Shown: one piece after another, positions 6,759-14,446 of the stretch
How the letters are laid out: every line of letters starts with the position of its first letter
Position numbering within the stretch: the first letter of the stretch is position 1
Assembly: GCA_937132065.1 (NCBI GenBank)
Contig: CAKZNT010000054.1
Coordinates: 54,949 to 118,948 of the forward strand
Direction of reading: 5' to 3'
DNA length: 64,000 bases
Source: an uncultured Loktanella sp.
GTDB lineage: Bacteria; Pseudomonadota; Alphaproteobacteria; Rhodobacterales; Rhodobacteraceae
Position numbers and translations under genes: made by a program
The notes under the pieces: generated by a model
What the model was told of the DNA's origin: nothing
Databases searched by the model: none
The model's input: only the letters and a program-made list of their open reading frames with translations

Positions 6759-7700
6759 ATGAACTGGATCACCAACTACGTCCGCCCCACGATTAACTCG
6801 CTGTTTTCACGGCGCGAAGTCCCTGACAATCTTTGGACAAAGTGCGGCGAATGCGGAACCATGCTGTTCCACCGCGAACTGGCTGACAATCTTAATGTTT
6901 GCACCAACTGCAACCACCACATGCCAATCGGGGCACGCGACCGGCTCGCGTCCCTGTTTGATGGTGGGGTGTTTGTTGACGTCAAAGTGCCCGACCCCGT
7001 TGCAGACCCGCTGCACTTTCGCGATCAAAAGAAATATACCGACCGGATCAAGGACGCGCGTAAAAAGACGGGCGAAAAAGATGCGATGCTCGTTGCCGAG
7101 GGGCAGATGGGGCGCACTGGCGTTGTCGTCGCCGTGCAAGATTTCTCGTTTATGGGCGGATCGATGTCGATGTATGTCGGCAACGCGATTGTTGCGGGCG
7201 CAGAGCGGGCGATTGCACTCGGGCAACCCTTGATCCTGTTCTCGGCGGCTGGCGGGGCACGCATGCAAGAGGGCATCATGGGCCTGATGCAAATGCCACG
7301 GACCACCATCGCGGTGCAAATGCTCAAGGAAGCGGGCCTTCCATATATCGTCGTGCTGACCCACCCGACAACGGGCGGTGTAACGGCGTCCTATGCGATG
7401 CTTGGCGATGTGCAAATCGCAGAGCCAAACGCGTTGATCGGCTTTGCTGGTGCGCGCGTGATCGAGCAAACCATCGGTGAGAAACTGCCCGAAGGGTTCC
7501 AGCGGGCCGAATATCTGCTCGACCACGGGATGCTTGACCGCGTGACCAACCGGACGGACCTCAAGGACGAGCTTGTGACCATCGTGCGGATGCTGACCAA
7601 GCAATCCGCGCCCGTCAAAGGTGACCTGCCCGCGCCAGATGCAGCCGAATCCGAGGCTGAAACCGCCGAGGTCGCTCCCGCCGAGGACGCGCCCAAGTGA
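6759..7700 (+). CDS. accD: acetyl-CoA carboxylase carboxyltransferase subunit beta
   Basis: Zn-finger [37 protein letters not shown] and [18 protein letters not shown]. Confidence 0.97.
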
Positions 7701-8977
7701 GCGGCGGCTCTGACGCCATCCTCAACCGGATGATGGCGCTGCACCCCAAGGTGATCGACCTGACGCTTGATCGGGTCTGGTCGCTATTGGCGAAACTGGA
7801 CCACCCCGAGCGCAAACTGCCGCCCGTGATCCACCTCGCGGGGACCAACGGCAAGGGATCAACCCAAGCGATGATCCGCGCAGGGTTGGAACAATCTGGC
7901 GCAGCCGTGCACGCCTATACCTCGCCGCATCTGGCCATGTTCCACGAGCGGATCAGGCTGGCTGGTACGCTTATTTCCGAAACCGAACTGACGGACATCC
8001 TAGATCGCTGCTATCAGGCCAACGGCCCCGACCCGATCACCTACTTCGAAATCACAACTGTCGCGGGGATATTGGCCTTCGCTGAAACACCCGCTGACTT
8101 CACGCTGCTCGAGGTCGGACTTGGGGGGCGGCTCGACGCCACCAATGTCGTCGAAAAGCCCGCCGTATCTGTCATCACGCCCATTGATTTGGACCACCAG
8201 CAATTCCTTGGCGACACGCTCACGGCCATTGCGGGCGAAAAGGCGGGGATCATCAAGCAGGGCGTGCCCTGCGTTGTCGGCCCTCAGCACGACGAAAGCA
8301 TGGACGTTATCGAAACGATTGCCGCCAAACTTGGCGCGCCGCTCATGGCCTACGGGCAGCAATGGCATGTGTCCCAAGAACGCGAACGGCTCATCTATCA
8401 GGACGAAACAGGGCTGCTTGACCTACCGCTGCCCGCGCTGCCCGGACCGCATCAGATCATGAACGCAGGGGCGGCCATTGCGGCACTTCGGCTCTTGGGG
8501 CGCGACGAGGCGGCCTGCGAGGCGGCTGTCAGCAACGCCTATTGGCCCGCGCGCATGGAGCATCTGACCACGGGGCCGCTTGTTGAAATGGCCGCGCCCG
8601 CAGAGCTTTGGCTTGACGGTGGGCACAACCCCGCAGCAGGGCGCGCCATTGCGCAAACGCTGCGCCAACAACCAGCGCGACCAACACATTTGATCTGCGG
8701 AATGCTCAATACCAAGGACATCGGGGGCTATCTTGCGCCACTTGCACAGGTTGCCGACAGCTTGACCGCCGTTTCGATCCCCGACGAGATCAACACAATT
8801 CCAGCCGAGAAAACCGCGCAAGAAGCGGCCAAAGTTGGACTGACAGCACAGACCGCACCTGACGTTAAGTCAGCGATATCAACGATCAAGGGGCACTCGC
8901 CCCATGCGCGCATCCTGATCTGCGGGTCGCTTTACCTTGCAGGACACGTCCTGCGGGAAAACGCGGAACCGCAATAA
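7697..8977 (+). CDS. folC: bifunctional folylpolyglutamate synthase/dihydrofolate synthase
   Basis: [34 protein letters not shown] overlap with accD. Confidence 0.94.
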
Positions 8978-9100: not shown

Positions 9101-9724
9101 ATGTTTTCGCATAAATTCGTCGCAGCTTTGGCTGTCGGCGCGGGCCTGACCACATCTACGCTGGCGCAGAGCACGCCCGAGCCAATGAAGGCGTCCTTCA
9201 TGCTCGCGGGCATTGAGAAATCCATCACGCAGAGCGCGAGCTTGGACGCAGGCCGGATCGCCGCGTTCCACCGCCCTGCATCCGCTTGTACCAATCCATG
9301 CATCGCGCCGCTTGCGGCTGCGGCTGGGGTGCAGACAGTGGGCGAACGCGAGGTCATCAGCTTTGTCGCCAATGTCGTGACCAAGGGCGAAGGCCTCTTG
9401 ATCGACAGCCGCAACCCGCAAGATCGGGCGGCGGGCTATATCGCCGCATCGGTGAACGTGCCCACTGATCTGGTCGCGCCCGATAACCCGTTTATGGCCG
9501 ACATCATGCAGGCGATGGGCGCACGGTCCTTTGAAGGCACACTCAATTATTCGGACGCCATGCCCTTGGTCATCTTTGATGACGGGCCGTCCACATCTGA
9601 CGCACCCGCGCTGATCGCGCGACTGATCGCGGCTGGATACCCAGCCAGTAAACTAAGCTACTACCGTGGCGGCATGCTCGTCTGGACGGCACTTGGACTG
9701 AACACAGAGGACGCAAAATCATGA
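9101..9724 (+). CDS. secreted rhodanese-like domain protein (copy A), Cys-less active loop, C-x3-C motif
   Basis: Signal peptide; LLIDSRNP...ASVNVP...LVIFDDGPST...IAAGYPASKLSYYRGGMLVWTALGL; CTNPC motif. Confidence 0.75.
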   Translation: MFSHKFVAALAVGAGLTTSTLAQSTPEPMKASFMLAGIEKSITQSASLDAGRIAAFHRPASACTNPCIAPLAAAAGVQTVGEREVISFVANVVTKGEGLLIDSRNPQDRAAGYIAASVNVPTDLVAPDNPFMADIMQAMGARSFEGTLNYSDAMPLVIFDDGPSTSDAPALIARLIAAGYPASKLSYYRGGMLVWTALGLNTEDAKS

Positions 9725-10572
9725 ACATGCAAACACCACCACCCACAAAGACATCATCAAGCATGCCTTGGATCATCGCCGTTGGCGCTGTGACGTTTGC
9801 GCTTGGCGCGGTAGGCGCGTTCACCTTGGCGCAAATGAACCAGTCCCGTCAGAACGATGCAATCGCAACGCTGGCCGCGCAACTGGCTGACATGCAGGTC
9901 ACGCGGGCCCAAACGCCTGACCTTCTGGCGATCACCGCGCCAGCCGAAGTCGTGCCAACGAGCATTCCATCAGCGAGCGCTGTGCTGGCTGCGCGCGTCC
10001 CAACGGGCGTTGTCGCCGAAGTCTCCCAAGAACAGAAAACCGCCGAGGCCATCGCCATCGCGAACCGCAATAAAATGAGGATGCTGACCGAAGGGGTCGT
10101 TGCAGGCCTCTACTCCGTCACCTCAGAAAGCGCGGACGGGAACACGCGCATCGCGCTCAACTCGCGCAACGCCGCCAGCACCGCGTCAGAGCTAGAGCGG
10201 CTCTTGGCCACGGCAGCCGCGAACGGGGACATTGATGTGCCAGACGCAATCGCCACCAGCAGCGGCACGGTCGATAGCCAAACGCTCCTGTTTGATCTTG
10301 TCCAGCAATCCTTGGAAAACGGATCCGAGCAAGAGGTCGCCGCCGCCCAAGAGATGCGCCGCCGCGCTTTCGCCGCATCGGCTGCAAAAACACAAGTTAT
10401 CGAGGGCAAGCGGTTTTATACTGTAGAACCGGGGGATAGCCTTGCTTATATTTCGCTCCAATTCTATGGCAGCACCAATGCATTTGAAACGATCTTCCAA
10501 GCCAATCGGTCCAAGATTGCCAGCCCTGACCAAATTCAGATTGGGCAGCGCCTGGTTATTCCCGAAGCTTAA
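9721..10572 (+). CDS. membrane-anchored protein with C-terminal LysM domain (copy A)
   Basis: N-terminal TM helix; C-term RFYTVEPGDSLAYISLQFYGSTNAFETIFQANRSKIASPDQIQIGQRLVIPEA; ATGA overlap with rhodanese A. Confidence 0.85.
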   Translation: MNMQTPPPTKTSSSMPWIIAVGAVTFALGAVGAFTLAQMNQSRQNDAIATLAAQLADMQVTRAQTPDLLAITAPAEVVPTSIPSASAVLAARVPTGVVAEVSQEQKTAEAIAIANRNKMRMLTEGVVAGLYSVTSESADGNTRIALNSRNAASTASELERLLATAAANGDIDVPDAIATSSGTVDSQTLLFDLVQQSLENGSEQEVAAAQEMRRRAFAASAAKTQVIEGKRFYTVEPGDSLAYISLQFYGSTNAFETIFQANRSKIASPDQIQIGQRLVIPEA

Positions 10573-11077
10573 GCTTTCCTTTGCGATCGCTGTTGGCCTT
10601 GCGGGGCCAGCGGCCTCTGCCGAAATCAACCTGTGTTGGCGCGGCGAAGGCGGCTACACGATGACAGGGCGGATGACGGTCCCCGACAGCGCCATGTTTC
10701 GCGCGATCCTGACGCAAGACGACGTCTCGCGGTTCAAGGTTTCGGGCTACCTCAAGGGGCAGCTCATCGGTCAGTGGGACAGCCAAACGCGTGCAAATTC
10801 CGATACTTGGCATCTGCGGTTTGACCCCGCAGGCATGACGTTCCTCACTGGCGGTCGCTTTGCAGGGACGGCCTCGCAGGGGTGGAATGCGGACGGAACC
10901 TCCGAGAACTGCGGCAATCCGGGCTTCGGGTTCAACTCCGGGAATTTCGGGCAGGACCTATGCGTAAACGGCATGTGGATCGAGGCAAGTAGCATCGCGC
11001 CCGACACCCCGCTTTTGGCTACGCTTGACCCCGTGACCCCTGATTGCCGCAACACAGCCGCCGTCAGCAAGCGCTAG
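10541..11077 (+). CDS. small secreted conserved hypothetical protein (start uncertain, possibly TTG)
   Basis: LKLSFAIAVGLAGPAASA signal-like segment followed by EINLCWRGEGGYTMTGRM; overlaps end of LysM A. Confidence 0.6.
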   Translation: MGSAWLFPKLKLSFAIAVGLAGPAASAEINLCWRGEGGYTMTGRMTVPDSAMFRAILTQDDVSRFKVSGYLKGQLIGQWDSQTRANSDTWHLRFDPAGMTFLTGGRFAGTASQGWNADGTSENCGNPGFGFNSGNFGQDLCVNGMWIEASSIAPDTPLLATLDPVTPDCRNTAAVSKR

Positions 11078-11368
11078 CCGCAGCTAATTTCCAAAACGAA
11101 TCGATAATTGTTGACGGCGAATCACCTTTGGTTCAAGTTGGCCGCAACAGCGAAGCGCCATAATAAACAGGCCGATCGCGCCGCCCTTGGCAGGGCGAGG
11201 GGGCAGGCGTTAGGCCTGTCTTCTTGTTTTCGGGCCTCAAAACGAATCATTGCGAATCAGTCTTTGACTTCACAGGCCAAAATGCACTAAATCTTGTAAA
11301 AATTGATGCGCCCACGCCGTATGCTGCGGTCTGCCCTAAATATAGGGGCGCGAAATTGAGGTTATATC

Positions 11369-11995
11369 GTGATGCGCGTGTTGGTGGTGATGACTGGATT
11401 CTTGGCGACCCTTGCGGCGCTGCCGCTTGCTGCCCAAGATGTGCGGATCAGCGAAACCCAAGCGCAATCAACCTTTAGCGTAGGCGCGCGCGACTTTACC
11501 ATTTCGCGTAACCAAGACGTTGACGCGGCCCTGACAGGCGAATTCGCCAAGACCAGCCGCCCCTGCCCCGACTTTTGCATTCAGCCCATGATCACCGCAA
11601 CTGGCGTGCGCCCGATTGGCGAACTGGAATTGCTCGACTTTCTTGAAACCGATGTCGCGGGGACCACGGGGCTCTTGATCGACGCGCGCCTGCCCGATTG
11701 GTTTGCCAAAGGGAGCATCCCCGCCGCCGTCAACGTGCCCTTTGCCGCGCTTGATCCGCAAAACCCATATCAAAATGACATTCTGCGCGCACTTGGCGCA
11801 GAGTTGCGCGGTGACATCCTCGATTTCGAAAATGCGCAATTGCTTGTGATTTACGACAATGGCGTTTGGGACGCACAGGCGACCCGCGCCATTACCAATC
11901 TGATTGCCGCTGGGTATCCAGCCGCGAAAATTCAAAACTACCGTGGTGGCCTTGAAGACTGGGTTCACCTCGGTCTGACCACCACTCTGCCTTAA
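11369..11995 (+). CDS. secreted rhodanese-like domain protein (copy B), Cys-less active loop, C-x3-C motif
   Basis: Signal peptide; CPDFC; LLIDARLPD...AAVNVP...LVIYDNGVWD...IAAGYPAAKIQNYRGGLEDWVHLGL, collinear with 9101..9724. Confidence 0.75.
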   Translation: MMRVLVVMTGFLATLAALPLAAQDVRISETQAQSTFSVGARDFTISRNQDVDAALTGEFAKTSRPCPDFCIQPMITATGVRPIGELELLDFLETDVAGTTGLLIDARLPDWFAKGSIPAAVNVPFAALDPQNPYQNDILRALGAELRGDILDFENAQLLVIYDNGVWDAQATRAITNLIAAGYPAAKIQNYRGGLEDWVHLGLTTTLP

Positions 11996-12011
11996 TGAAA
12001 GCGATATTCTT

Positions 12012-12866
12012 ATGATCCGTTCTGTTGTCGGTCTTTTCATCTTTGCTGTGCTGCTTTGCGGCTACATCGTGCTGCGTCCGTCCGATAACGGGCGTCCCGC
12101 CGCTGTTGAAACAACCGAGGTCACACGGGCGCAAACCGATAGCATCCTTGGCCCTGTGCCTGACGCAATCGCCCCCATCGAGGTCGTGGCCGCCGTGCAA
12201 GCTCCCGTGCGCAACACCGCTCCCGGTTTGGCGCTCACGACAGATCGCTCCCAGATGGATGAAACAGCCGCCAACGTGCTGGCAGGGCTTGGCCTGAATG
12301 TAGAGCGTAACCAGACCGCGGGCGATAGCGACGAAATGCTGGAAATGACCGCAAGTGTGCTATCGGGCATCGGTGCGATCACGGGCCAGACGTTCAACGC
12401 CAGCGGCAAGCCACCAGCAGCCGAATCCGCGCTCGAGCTGCTGGTCGTGCAAGCCCTCAAAGAGGGGCAGAACGACGCCTACATCAACACATTGGTCAAC
12501 GAGGCCGCCAAGGCAGGCGAGATTTCCGTGCCCGACATTCTTGTGACATCCGAAGGGGACGTCGACACCGCAGTTTTGCTGAACTCGATCATCACGCAGG
12601 CCCAGATCGCAGCGGGCGGCGCAGAACCTGCCGTGCCTAACGTGACCTCTGGCGAGGGTGTTGAAGTGCGCGTTGTGCAGCGCGCCACCGAAGCCGAGCA
12701 ATATCGCTTTTACACCGTGAACAAGGGCGACAGCCTTGGGTCAATCGCGGTCAAGTTCTACGGTAACGTCAACAAGTTTGGCCGCATCTTCGAGGCCAAC
12801 CGCCAGATCCTCTCTAGCCCGAATGCTATCCAGGTTGGCCAGCGGCTTTCGATCCCGAACGTCTAA
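12012..12866 (+). CDS. membrane-anchored protein with C-terminal LysM domain (copy B)
   Basis: N-term TM; RFYTVNKGDSLGSIAVKFYGNVNKFGRIFEANRQILSSPNAIQVGQRLSIPNV, collinear with copy A. Confidence 0.85.
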   Translation: MIRSVVGLFIFAVLLCGYIVLRPSDNGRPAAVETTEVTRAQTDSILGPVPDAIAPIEVVAAVQAPVRNTAPGLALTTDRSQMDETAANVLAGLGLNVERNQTAGDSDEMLEMTASVLSGIGAITGQTFNASGKPPAAESALELLVVQALKEGQNDAYINTLVNEAAKAGEISVPDILVTSEGDVDTAVLLNSIITQAQIAAGGAEPAVPNVTSGEGVEVRVVQRATEAEQYRFYTVNKGDSLGSIAVKFYGNVNKFGRIFEANRQILSSPNAIQVGQRLSIPNV

Positions 12867-12875
12867 GGCGACACC

Positions 12876-13400
12876 ATGCGTGACCCGATAGAGTTCAGCT
12901 ACACCGCCGTAAACAAAGACCTTTATTGGAAGGCCGCGCAATGGGGCGGCAAATCCTTGGACAGCGGCTCTAAAATCGGCTGGGCGCTCAAGTTCGCGCT
13001 TTGGCTGGTGCTCGTGGCCGTCATGGTCGCGCTGTTGCAACTGCCAATCCTGCAAAAGTGCGGCCCAGCATTCCTGCTCGGCACAGTTTTTACGGCAATT
13101 GCCCTGCTTTTGATCTCGCGCGTGCAACGGTCACGGTTTATCACCACTTTTGAGCGAGACCAAAGCAAGCGCGGAGAGGTCGCCGTTTCCATCGGGGCAG
13201 ACGGTTGCAAGTTCAGCTCGTCGTTCGGAGACACCCACCTGACATGGTTCGCCATCGACACAGTCATCGACCTCGGCACAGGCACGGGGCTGCGCAGTGG
13301 CTTGCTGGTCTATCCGCTGCCTGACGCGGACCTGCCAAGCGACATAACTCCCGCCGCGTTCAGACAAGCCCTCAATGACTGGAAAGCAGCAGCGGCCTAG
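12876..13400 (+). CDS. YcxB-like domain membrane protein
   Basis: Two TM helices then LTWFAIDTVIDLGTGTGLRSGLLVYPLPDADLP, typical of YcxB-like C-terminal domain. Confidence 0.6.
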   Translation: MRDPIEFSYTAVNKDLYWKAAQWGGKSLDSGSKIGWALKFALWLVLVAVMVALLQLPILQKCGPAFLLGTVFTAIALLLISRVQRSRFITTFERDQSKRGEVAVSIGADGCKFSSSFGDTHLTWFAIDTVIDLGTGTGLRSGLLVYPLPDADLPSDITPAAFRQALNDWKAAAA

Positions 13401-14446
13401 CCCCAGTCATCCGCTTGCATTTCGCGCAACCGACTGGCGGTGCGCTCGAATTCAAACGTGCCCTCGCCCTCGACGTAAAGCATCTCTGGCACAGCCGCCG
13501 CCGAACAGATCAGCCGCACCTTACCCTCGTATAGCGTATCAATCAGCGTCACAAACCGCTTTGCCTCATTGAAATTCTGGCGCGACAGGCGGGGGATATC
13601 CTCCACGATCAGCACCCGCACGGCTTCGGCCAACGCCAGATAATCCGCCGCACCCAAGGGCTTGCCGCAGAGGTCGAAAAAGCCGACGCGCCCGACACCA
13701 TTGTGGAAATGCGGAATGACAACCTCGCGCCCTTTCACATGCAGCGTCAGCGACGTTGATTGCCCGCCCGTTAGCCCCTCCCAAGCGGCATCAATCGCGC
13801 CACGCGCCTCTGCGCCCGCAGGGGTGAAATAGGTCGGTGTGCCCGCGAGGCGCCCCTGCCTGTAATCTGTCTCGCTCGCTAGTTCATGCACGACCAGCCG
13901 CTCTTTGATCAGGTCGATAAATGGCAGGAACAGCGCACGGTTCAAGCCGTCTTTGTATAAGGCATCGGGGTGACGGTTCGACGTTGTAACAATCACAACA
14001 CCCGCCGCAAACAGCGCCTCGAACAAGCGACCCACGATCATCGCATCGGTGATGTCTGTGATCTGCATCTCGTCAAACGCCAGAAAGCGGACCTCGGCGG
14101 CAAGCGTGGCCGCGACAGGGGCAATCGCGTCATCGACCCCCAGCTTGCGGGCGGCGTTCATCTCGTTGTGAACCCACTGCATAAACGCGTGGAAATGGCG
14201 GCGCTGCTTGGGGGCGTCAACAGCCTCGAATAGCAGATCCATCAACATGGATTTGCCACGGCCAACACCGCCCCACATATACAAGCCCTTGATCGGCGGC
14301 GGGGCTTTGCGAAACAGGCCACGCTTGACGGGTTCCGCCAAGGCGGCGCGCACCCGCTCCAATTCTGGCATCACCGCAACTTGGGCGGCGTCCGCGTGCA
14401 AACGGCCCTCGGCCACGGCGGCACTGTAAATCTCTTGCATCATCAT
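13397..14446 (-). CDS. zapE: cell division protein ZapE / AFG1-like ATPase
   Basis: GLYMWGGVGRGKSMLMDLLF Walker A, FLAFDEMQITDITDAMIVGRLFE. Confidence 0.92.
   Translation of the reverse strand: MMMQEIYSAAVAEGRLHADAAQVAVMPELERVRAALAEPVKRGLFRKAPPPIKGLYMWGGVGRGKSMLMDLLFEAVDAPKQRRHFHAFMQWVHNEMNAARKLGVDDAIAPVAATLAAEVRFLAFDEMQITDITDAMIVGRLFEALFAAGVVIVTTSNRHPDALYKDGLNRALFLPFIDLIKERLVVHELASETDYRQGRLAGTPTYFTPAGAEARGAIDAAWEGLTGGQSTSLTLHVKGREVVIPHFHNGVGRVGFFDLCGKPLGAADYLALAEAVRVLIVEDIPRLSRQNFNEAKRFVTLIDTLYEGKVRLICSAAAVPEMLYVEGEGTFEFERTASRLREMQADDWG

Follow-up and report, generated by a model that had tools for sequence, protein, structure and literature searches.

A Conserved and Duplicated Rhodanese-LysM Gene Pair in Rhodobacterales Whose Rhodanese-Fold Proteins Have Repeatedly Lost the Catalytic Cysteine

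The window analyzed here is a 64,000-nucleotide stretch of the genome of an uncultured Loktanella sp. (GenBank assembly GCA_937132065.1, 92 contigs, Rhodobacteraceae; contig CAKZNT010000054.1, positions 54,949 to 118,948). It carries two gene pairs, designated rhdA-lysA and rhdB-lysB, in each of which a gene for an exported rhodanese-fold protein is followed by a gene for a LysM protein. The pair was found to recur in fixed order in two phyla and to have been duplicated as a whole before the sampled genera split from one another, and the catalytic cysteine of its rhodanese has been lost repeatedly, including in both window copies, which are under purifying selection. The structure and history of the unit are well supported, and from them we infer a function: with a probability of about 45%, the window rhodaneses are wall-tethered, noncatalytic proteins for binding, sensing, or scaffolding that were derived from periplasmic sulfur-handling proteins and are positioned by their LysM partners.

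Both rhodanese genes scored above the curated cut-off of Pfam Rhodanese (PF00581; 1.4e-6 for rhdA and 1.6e-12 for rhdB), and the AlphaFold model of RhdB (predicted local distance difference test [pLDDT] score, 92.4) matched rhodaneses in the PDB with a Foldseek probability of 1.00. The fold assignment of the original prediction, which had called these proteins rhodanese-like, thus holds, but the absence of the catalytic cysteine from both copies had gone unnoticed. The ancestral active loop reads F-C-NGPW-C. In rhdA the loop reads FDDGPST, with aspartate at the catalytic position and the N-terminal CxxxC kept as CTNPC; in rhdB it reads YDNGVWD, with the catalytic and the second loop cysteine both gone and the N-terminal CPDFC kept. 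The catalytic position is occupied by aspartate in both proteins, and no further member of the rhodanese family was found in the window genome.

Among the relatives, the catalytic loop cysteine was kept in 22/22 of the solo loci examined, i.e., those without a LysM partner. In the rhodanese tree set, it was missing from 39 of 58 LysM-paired rhodaneses and from no solo ones. All 26 rhodanese rows of clade A are LysM paired and lack it, with aspartate as the replacement in 22 of them, and some clade B rhodaneses, the RhdB of the window among them, lack it as well. In Campylobacterota, independently, a degenerate rhodanese copy is found beside an intact one; where loci of this phylum hold two copies, one is usually degenerate. 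Parsimony on a quick tree of 159 rows gave 10 changes in the state of the catalytic cysteine, at least 5 of which are forced by well-supported branches. The N-terminal CxxxC was retained in 155 of these 159 sequences, including every sequence with a catalytic cysteine; four Campylobacterota copies are without the N-terminal cysteine pair.

To place the pair in its wider context, 395 Rhodobacterales genomes were searched. The rhodanese family was present in 134 and the LysM family in 47. In 39 of the 41 genomes with a strong LysM match, the rhodanese gene adjoins the LysM gene and precedes it; the remaining two (G077 and G100) have the LysM gene without the rhodanese. The typical order in relatives is accD-folC-rhdA-lysA-secX-rhdB-lysB-zapE, with variants in which rhdB is absent (G024, G031, and G001) or a lone pair lies at another site (G033). 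Most paired Rhodobacterales loci are within this accD-folC...zapE block, and the pair also occurs in a deoC...mutL/purine-degradation block, whose gene names were read from translations without a profile search, and at the site of L030. Broken copies were also seen, with frameshifts and stops in the L028 (G025) cluster and a truncated rhodanese in L037 (G026).

A wide scan with the B-clade rhodanese alignment as the query covered one genome per species (85,462 species), and its 80 top loci were read. The rhodanese-then-LysM order was also found in Hyphomicrobiales, Thiotrichales, other Gammaproteobacteria, and Campylobacterota, and Pfam confirmed the LysM domain in partner proteins of each of these groups. 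Aquificota was set aside as a third phylum: both loci come from one metagenome-assembled genome and are probably mis-binned, and the L133 contig, labeled Aquificaceae, matches a Thiotrichaceae neighborhood gene for gene. The claim of a co-encoded envelope module, present twice and with diverged paralogues, is supported by this recurring adjacency; rare adjacency elsewhere had been named as the outcome that would refute it, and the 39/41 LysM genomes show the opposite.

The two window pairs are paralogous, with 39% identity over 173 amino acids between RhdA and RhdB (E value, 8e-42) and 29% identity between LysA and LysB (E value, 3e-26). Clade A, the B group, and the solo sequences are distinct from one another in the rhodanese tree, and the LysM tree separates matching A and B groups with support of 98/86. 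The class of the rhodanese is the class of its LysM partner except in L038 and L030 and where a single gene has been lost (rhdB in L023, L027, and L029; lysA in L042/L071-L074; rhdA in L043). Since the A and B clades of the two proteins coincide, the duplication took in the pair as a whole and predates the split of the sampled genera, with losses of single genes following afterwards; this conclusion is well supported. The window retains both the A and the B pair. A recent local tandem duplication was rejected by both trees. Nor is the duplication local or specific to Rhodobacteraceae, since the unit also occurs in Hyphomicrobiales, Gammaproteobacteria, and Campylobacterota and the trees show an ancient event.

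The five genes of the window unit (the two pairs and secX) have proportions of nonsynonymous differences (pN) of 0.11 to 0.27 versus proportions of synonymous differences (pS) of 0.63 to 0.82. The ratio of nonsynonymous to synonymous substitution rates (dN/dS) of rhdA is about 0.14 to 0.18, and secX has a dN of 0.18 to 0.26 versus a dS of 1.6 to 2.3; with dS near saturation, these ratios are rough. The window copies are under purifying selection. Because pN is well below pS, the cysteine-less copies are not simply decaying, and because selection persists although the catalytic cysteine has been lost, the rhodaneses probably serve in binding or sensing and not as enzymes.

Both partners scored above the Pfam LysM (PF01476) cut-off of 20.9 bits (lysA, 1.7e-9 and 37.9 bits; lysB, 3.7e-9 and 36.8 bits). 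Their middle region had been described as low-complexity, which is only partly so: residues 140 to 200 of LysB are predicted to form an ordered helical domain (pLDDT, about 91 to 97), inside which the VPD motif lies. The middle domain had no match in Pfam or PDB searches. Judged by the signal peptide or membrane helix and by the LysM domain, the pair would be periplasmic and tethered to the wall.

With regard to the gene calls (Table 1), the original prediction was right about the two pairs, and all four open reading frames are open where it had placed them; the start of rhdB, however, is more likely ATG 11372 than the GTG 11369 that had been proposed, and secX, between the pairs, had been overlooked. 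The ATGA overlap that had been reported for rhdA and lysA was seen in the sequence, and the same overlap occurs in the relatives L025, L026, and L031. The secX gene has a TTG start and overlaps the 3' end of lysA. It was matched by tblastn in L025, L027, L028, L029, and L031, and the gene maps of relatives place it in the same cluster in the order folC-secX-rhd-lysM. Its product had no match in Pfam or PDB searches. In other genera, secX immediately follows folC and is in some cases present twice. Positions 12876 to 13400, between lysB and zapE, encode a 174-amino-acid membrane protein that fits no known family and for which no counterpart was found in the searched loci of relatives.

Table 1. 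Features of the rhodanese-LysM locus (positions are those of the window)
Feature	Position	Strand	Evidence
rhdA, exported rhodanese-fold protein, clade A	9101..9724	+	Pfam Rhodanese, loop table, tree, dN/dS
lysA, N-terminal membrane helix, helical middle domain, C-terminal LysM	9721..10572	+	Pfam LysM, LysM tree
ATGA stop/start overlap of rhdA and lysA	9721..9724	+	Read in sequence; recurs in relatives
secX, secreted protein without known family	about 10541..11077	+	tblastn, gene maps of relatives
rhdB, exported rhodanese-fold protein, clade B	11372..11995	+	Pfam Rhodanese, AlphaFold model, PDB search, tree
lysB, N-terminal membrane helix (residues 2-21), helical domain (~140-200), LysM (234-282)	12012..12866	+	Pfam, model, PDB search
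folC, upstream flank of conserved locus, outside module	7697..8977	+	Synteny accD-folC-[module]-zapE
zapE-type ATPase gene, downstream flank of conserved locus, outside module	13397..14446	-	Synteny

The neighboring genes were considered as a clue to function and rejected, as accD-folC-zapE and deoC/purine/mutL look like housekeeping genes. Other neighborhoods were recorded outside Rhodobacterales. In four Campylobacterota loci (L134, L137, L159, and L162), a further, separately encoded exported protein of ~560 amino acids belongs to the unit; Pfam found four PilJ N-terminal domains in it (L159 and L162). In Thiotrichaceae (L126, L127, L140, L143, L147, and L155), the pair is preceded by a small GTPase and a protein of unknown family, mostly also with a dCache-HAMP sensor upstream, and some of these loci have a CRP-type regulator after the pair. 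Chromatiales-type loci have the rhodanese without a LysM neighbor, preceded in many cases by a small secreted protein; in five gammaproteobacterial loci (L148, L150, L160, L163, and L172), a secreted protein of ~130 to 160 amino acids with a YLxxLxxEA-like motif precedes a rhodanese that lacks LysM.

Among the 395 Rhodobacterales genomes, soxB was present in 94 of the 95 in which the family member had not been scored as LysM paired, compared to 247/395 overall (Fisher P = 8e-22); this link extends over 54 genera (genus-level P = 2e-8). For the LysM-paired genomes, the count was 29/39 (P = 0.12). Species are not independent data, and these P values serve as a guide only. At least two of the 95 nonpaired genomes (G104 and G138) have weak LysM neighbors; both carry soxB. 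The window genome has soxB and no solo rhodanese homologue. The solo homologues (L078-L097), whose CNGxWC loops are intact, are nearly confined to soxB genomes and lie in varied gene neighborhoods; it is possible that they are an unrecognized periplasmic factor of thiosulfate oxidation.

The scheme that we propose is that a periplasmic rhodanese-fold protein and the LysM protein encoded directly downstream would form an old two-gene envelope module. The LysM protein, which appears to be membrane anchored (merely secreted in some lineages), could keep the rhodanese close to the cell wall. With its N-terminal CPPFC and a CNGPWC loop, the ancestral rhodanese was probably a periplasmic handler of sulfane sulfur. 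Duplication of the entire pair in Rhodobacterales gave rise to A and B; A lost the catalytic cysteine early, usually by a change of cysteine to aspartate, and B lost it on several occasions, among them in the clade to which the window copy belongs. Given the losses in both A and B, the window copies would be expected to be without sulfurtransferase activity. Physical contact between rhodanese and LysM protein, and a role in binding or sensing, would be in keeping with this scheme, and there is a precedent in TBC1D23, whose inactive rhodanese domain serves as a protein-binding surface (PMC7274447). Several points weigh against the scheme. The pair is not obligatory, since LysM genes occur without a rhodanese in L046 and L066 and surplus LysM copies occur in L069 and L070; the context outside the pair is variable (folC-zapE, deoC...mutL/purine degradation, and others) and indicates no pathway; a mirror-tree comparison of RhdB-LysB against FolC and ZapE gave a partial r of 0.21 (P = 0.054), i.e., no clear excess of coevolution; many branches of the 159-row quick tree are weak, so that the exact number of cysteine losses is uncertain; and the near-saturation of dS noted above applies here as well. 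A broader version, which we regard as doubtful, is that the window proteins belong to a widespread, undescribed class of wall-tethered pseudo-rhodaneses in which replacement of the catalytic cysteine, often by aspartate, has recurred and which now serve as sensors of sulfur species or proteins or as scaffolds, with the LysM partner reporting on the wall or localizing to it. The PilJ-repeat, dCache-HAMP, and small GTPase neighbors in Campylobacterota and Thiotrichaceae hint at envelope signaling.

Alternatively, the rhodaneses might still perform sulfur or thiol chemistry via the N-terminal CxxxC, in which case the module would be a wall-tethered thiol-disulfide or persulfide relay. The near-universal retention of this motif although the loop cysteine was lost about ten times, the soxB link of homologues not scored as LysM paired, and the many carriers from sulfur-oxidizer lineages all speak for such a relay. 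However, a structural disulfide in an exported protein would predict an invariant CxxxC equally well, the LysM-paired forms show no significant soxB link, and the N-terminal pair itself is gone in the four Campylobacterota copies; we consider a relay unlikely. In classical two-domain rhodaneses, in which an inactive N-terminal half works with an active C-terminal half, aspartate is common in the inactive half, and the inactive copy here carries the same cysteine-to-aspartate change. Inactive and active copies also adjoin in L040/L077 and in the Campylobacterota loci L132, L137, L159, and L166, as they would if A and B were a split tandem-domain rhodanese working as a heteromer of inactive A and active B, with B activity later lost in the window lineage too. 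This is quite improbable in view of the many genomes with the A pair alone (L049, L051, L054, L057, L058, L060, L062, and L076) or the B pair alone and of the lack of any active copy in the window.

A patchy spread, with an RhdB match absent from 22 of 36 sampled congeners and only a truncated copy in one, together with the broken G025/L028 copies, would be expected of functionless paralogues whose cysteine losses mark early decay. This explanation is already disfavored and retains only a slim chance, since the reading frames are intact in many genera, dN is well below dS, the lost cysteine becomes aspartate and not random residues, and the cluster order is conserved. Similarly, the mirror-tree value and the concentration of paired Rhodobacterales loci in the accD-folC...zapE block would suit unrelated envelope genes that merely hitchhike in a conserved block, yet the pair is kept in the deoC/purine, mutL, and L030 contexts, in other classes, and in a second phylum. 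These independent genomic contexts rule out incidental adjacency as a general explanation, and we give it very little credence. A noncatalytic, wall-tethered role remains the reading that we prefer.

Searches for a rhodanese-LysM pair, for periplasmic inactive rhodaneses, and for a rhodanese with PilJ returned nothing relevant in the open-access literature, most subscription papers being outside the search. Membership in an already characterized pathway, which had been named as grounds for abandoning the module, was likewise not found in that literature. The domains themselves are known; the open-access papers searched contain no description of the pair as a conserved unit, of its duplication, or of the recurrent loss of its active site. 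Two common envelope domains are joined here in a conserved, apparently undescribed operon in two phyla. The relatives provide a natural series of active, half-lost, and lost active sites in which the rest of the protein is kept, and hence a way to learn what the rhodanese fold does after catalysis. Moreover, the soxB link of the nonpaired relatives points to a candidate periplasmic factor in the thiosulfate oxidation of marine Alphaproteobacteria.

Among known systems, the periplasmic single-domain rhodaneses of PF00581, such as PspE, share the fold and the exported single domain, and the relatives of the window rhodaneses, solo and many paired, also share the loop cysteine with them. Unlike PspE-type rhodaneses, this family has an extra N-terminal region with CPPFC, ancestrally a second loop cysteine (CNGPWC), and a co-encoded LysM protein, and both window copies are without the catalytic cysteine. 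Two-domain thiosulfate sulfurtransferases bring inactive and active rhodanese copies together, as do several relatives of the window unit; in contrast, the window rhodaneses are exported as two distinct proteins, each accompanied by a LysM gene of its own, and whereas a two-domain rhodanese needs one half with a catalytic cysteine, both window copies are predicted to be inactive. The closest solved LysM domain to that of the window proteins is that of Kbp/YgaU (48% identity over 61 columns; profile E value, 6.9e-17), but the window LysM proteins fall under the NCBIfam equivalog cut-off for Kbp/YgaU (NF008399; 57.8 and 68.7 versus 134 bits) and differ from Kbp/YgaU in their membrane helix and in their middle domain, which has no PDB match. 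TBC1D23, like the window rhodaneses, has kept the fold without catalysis (PMC7274447); it is a eukaryotic cytosolic trafficking protein, and no relationship beyond the fold is claimed.

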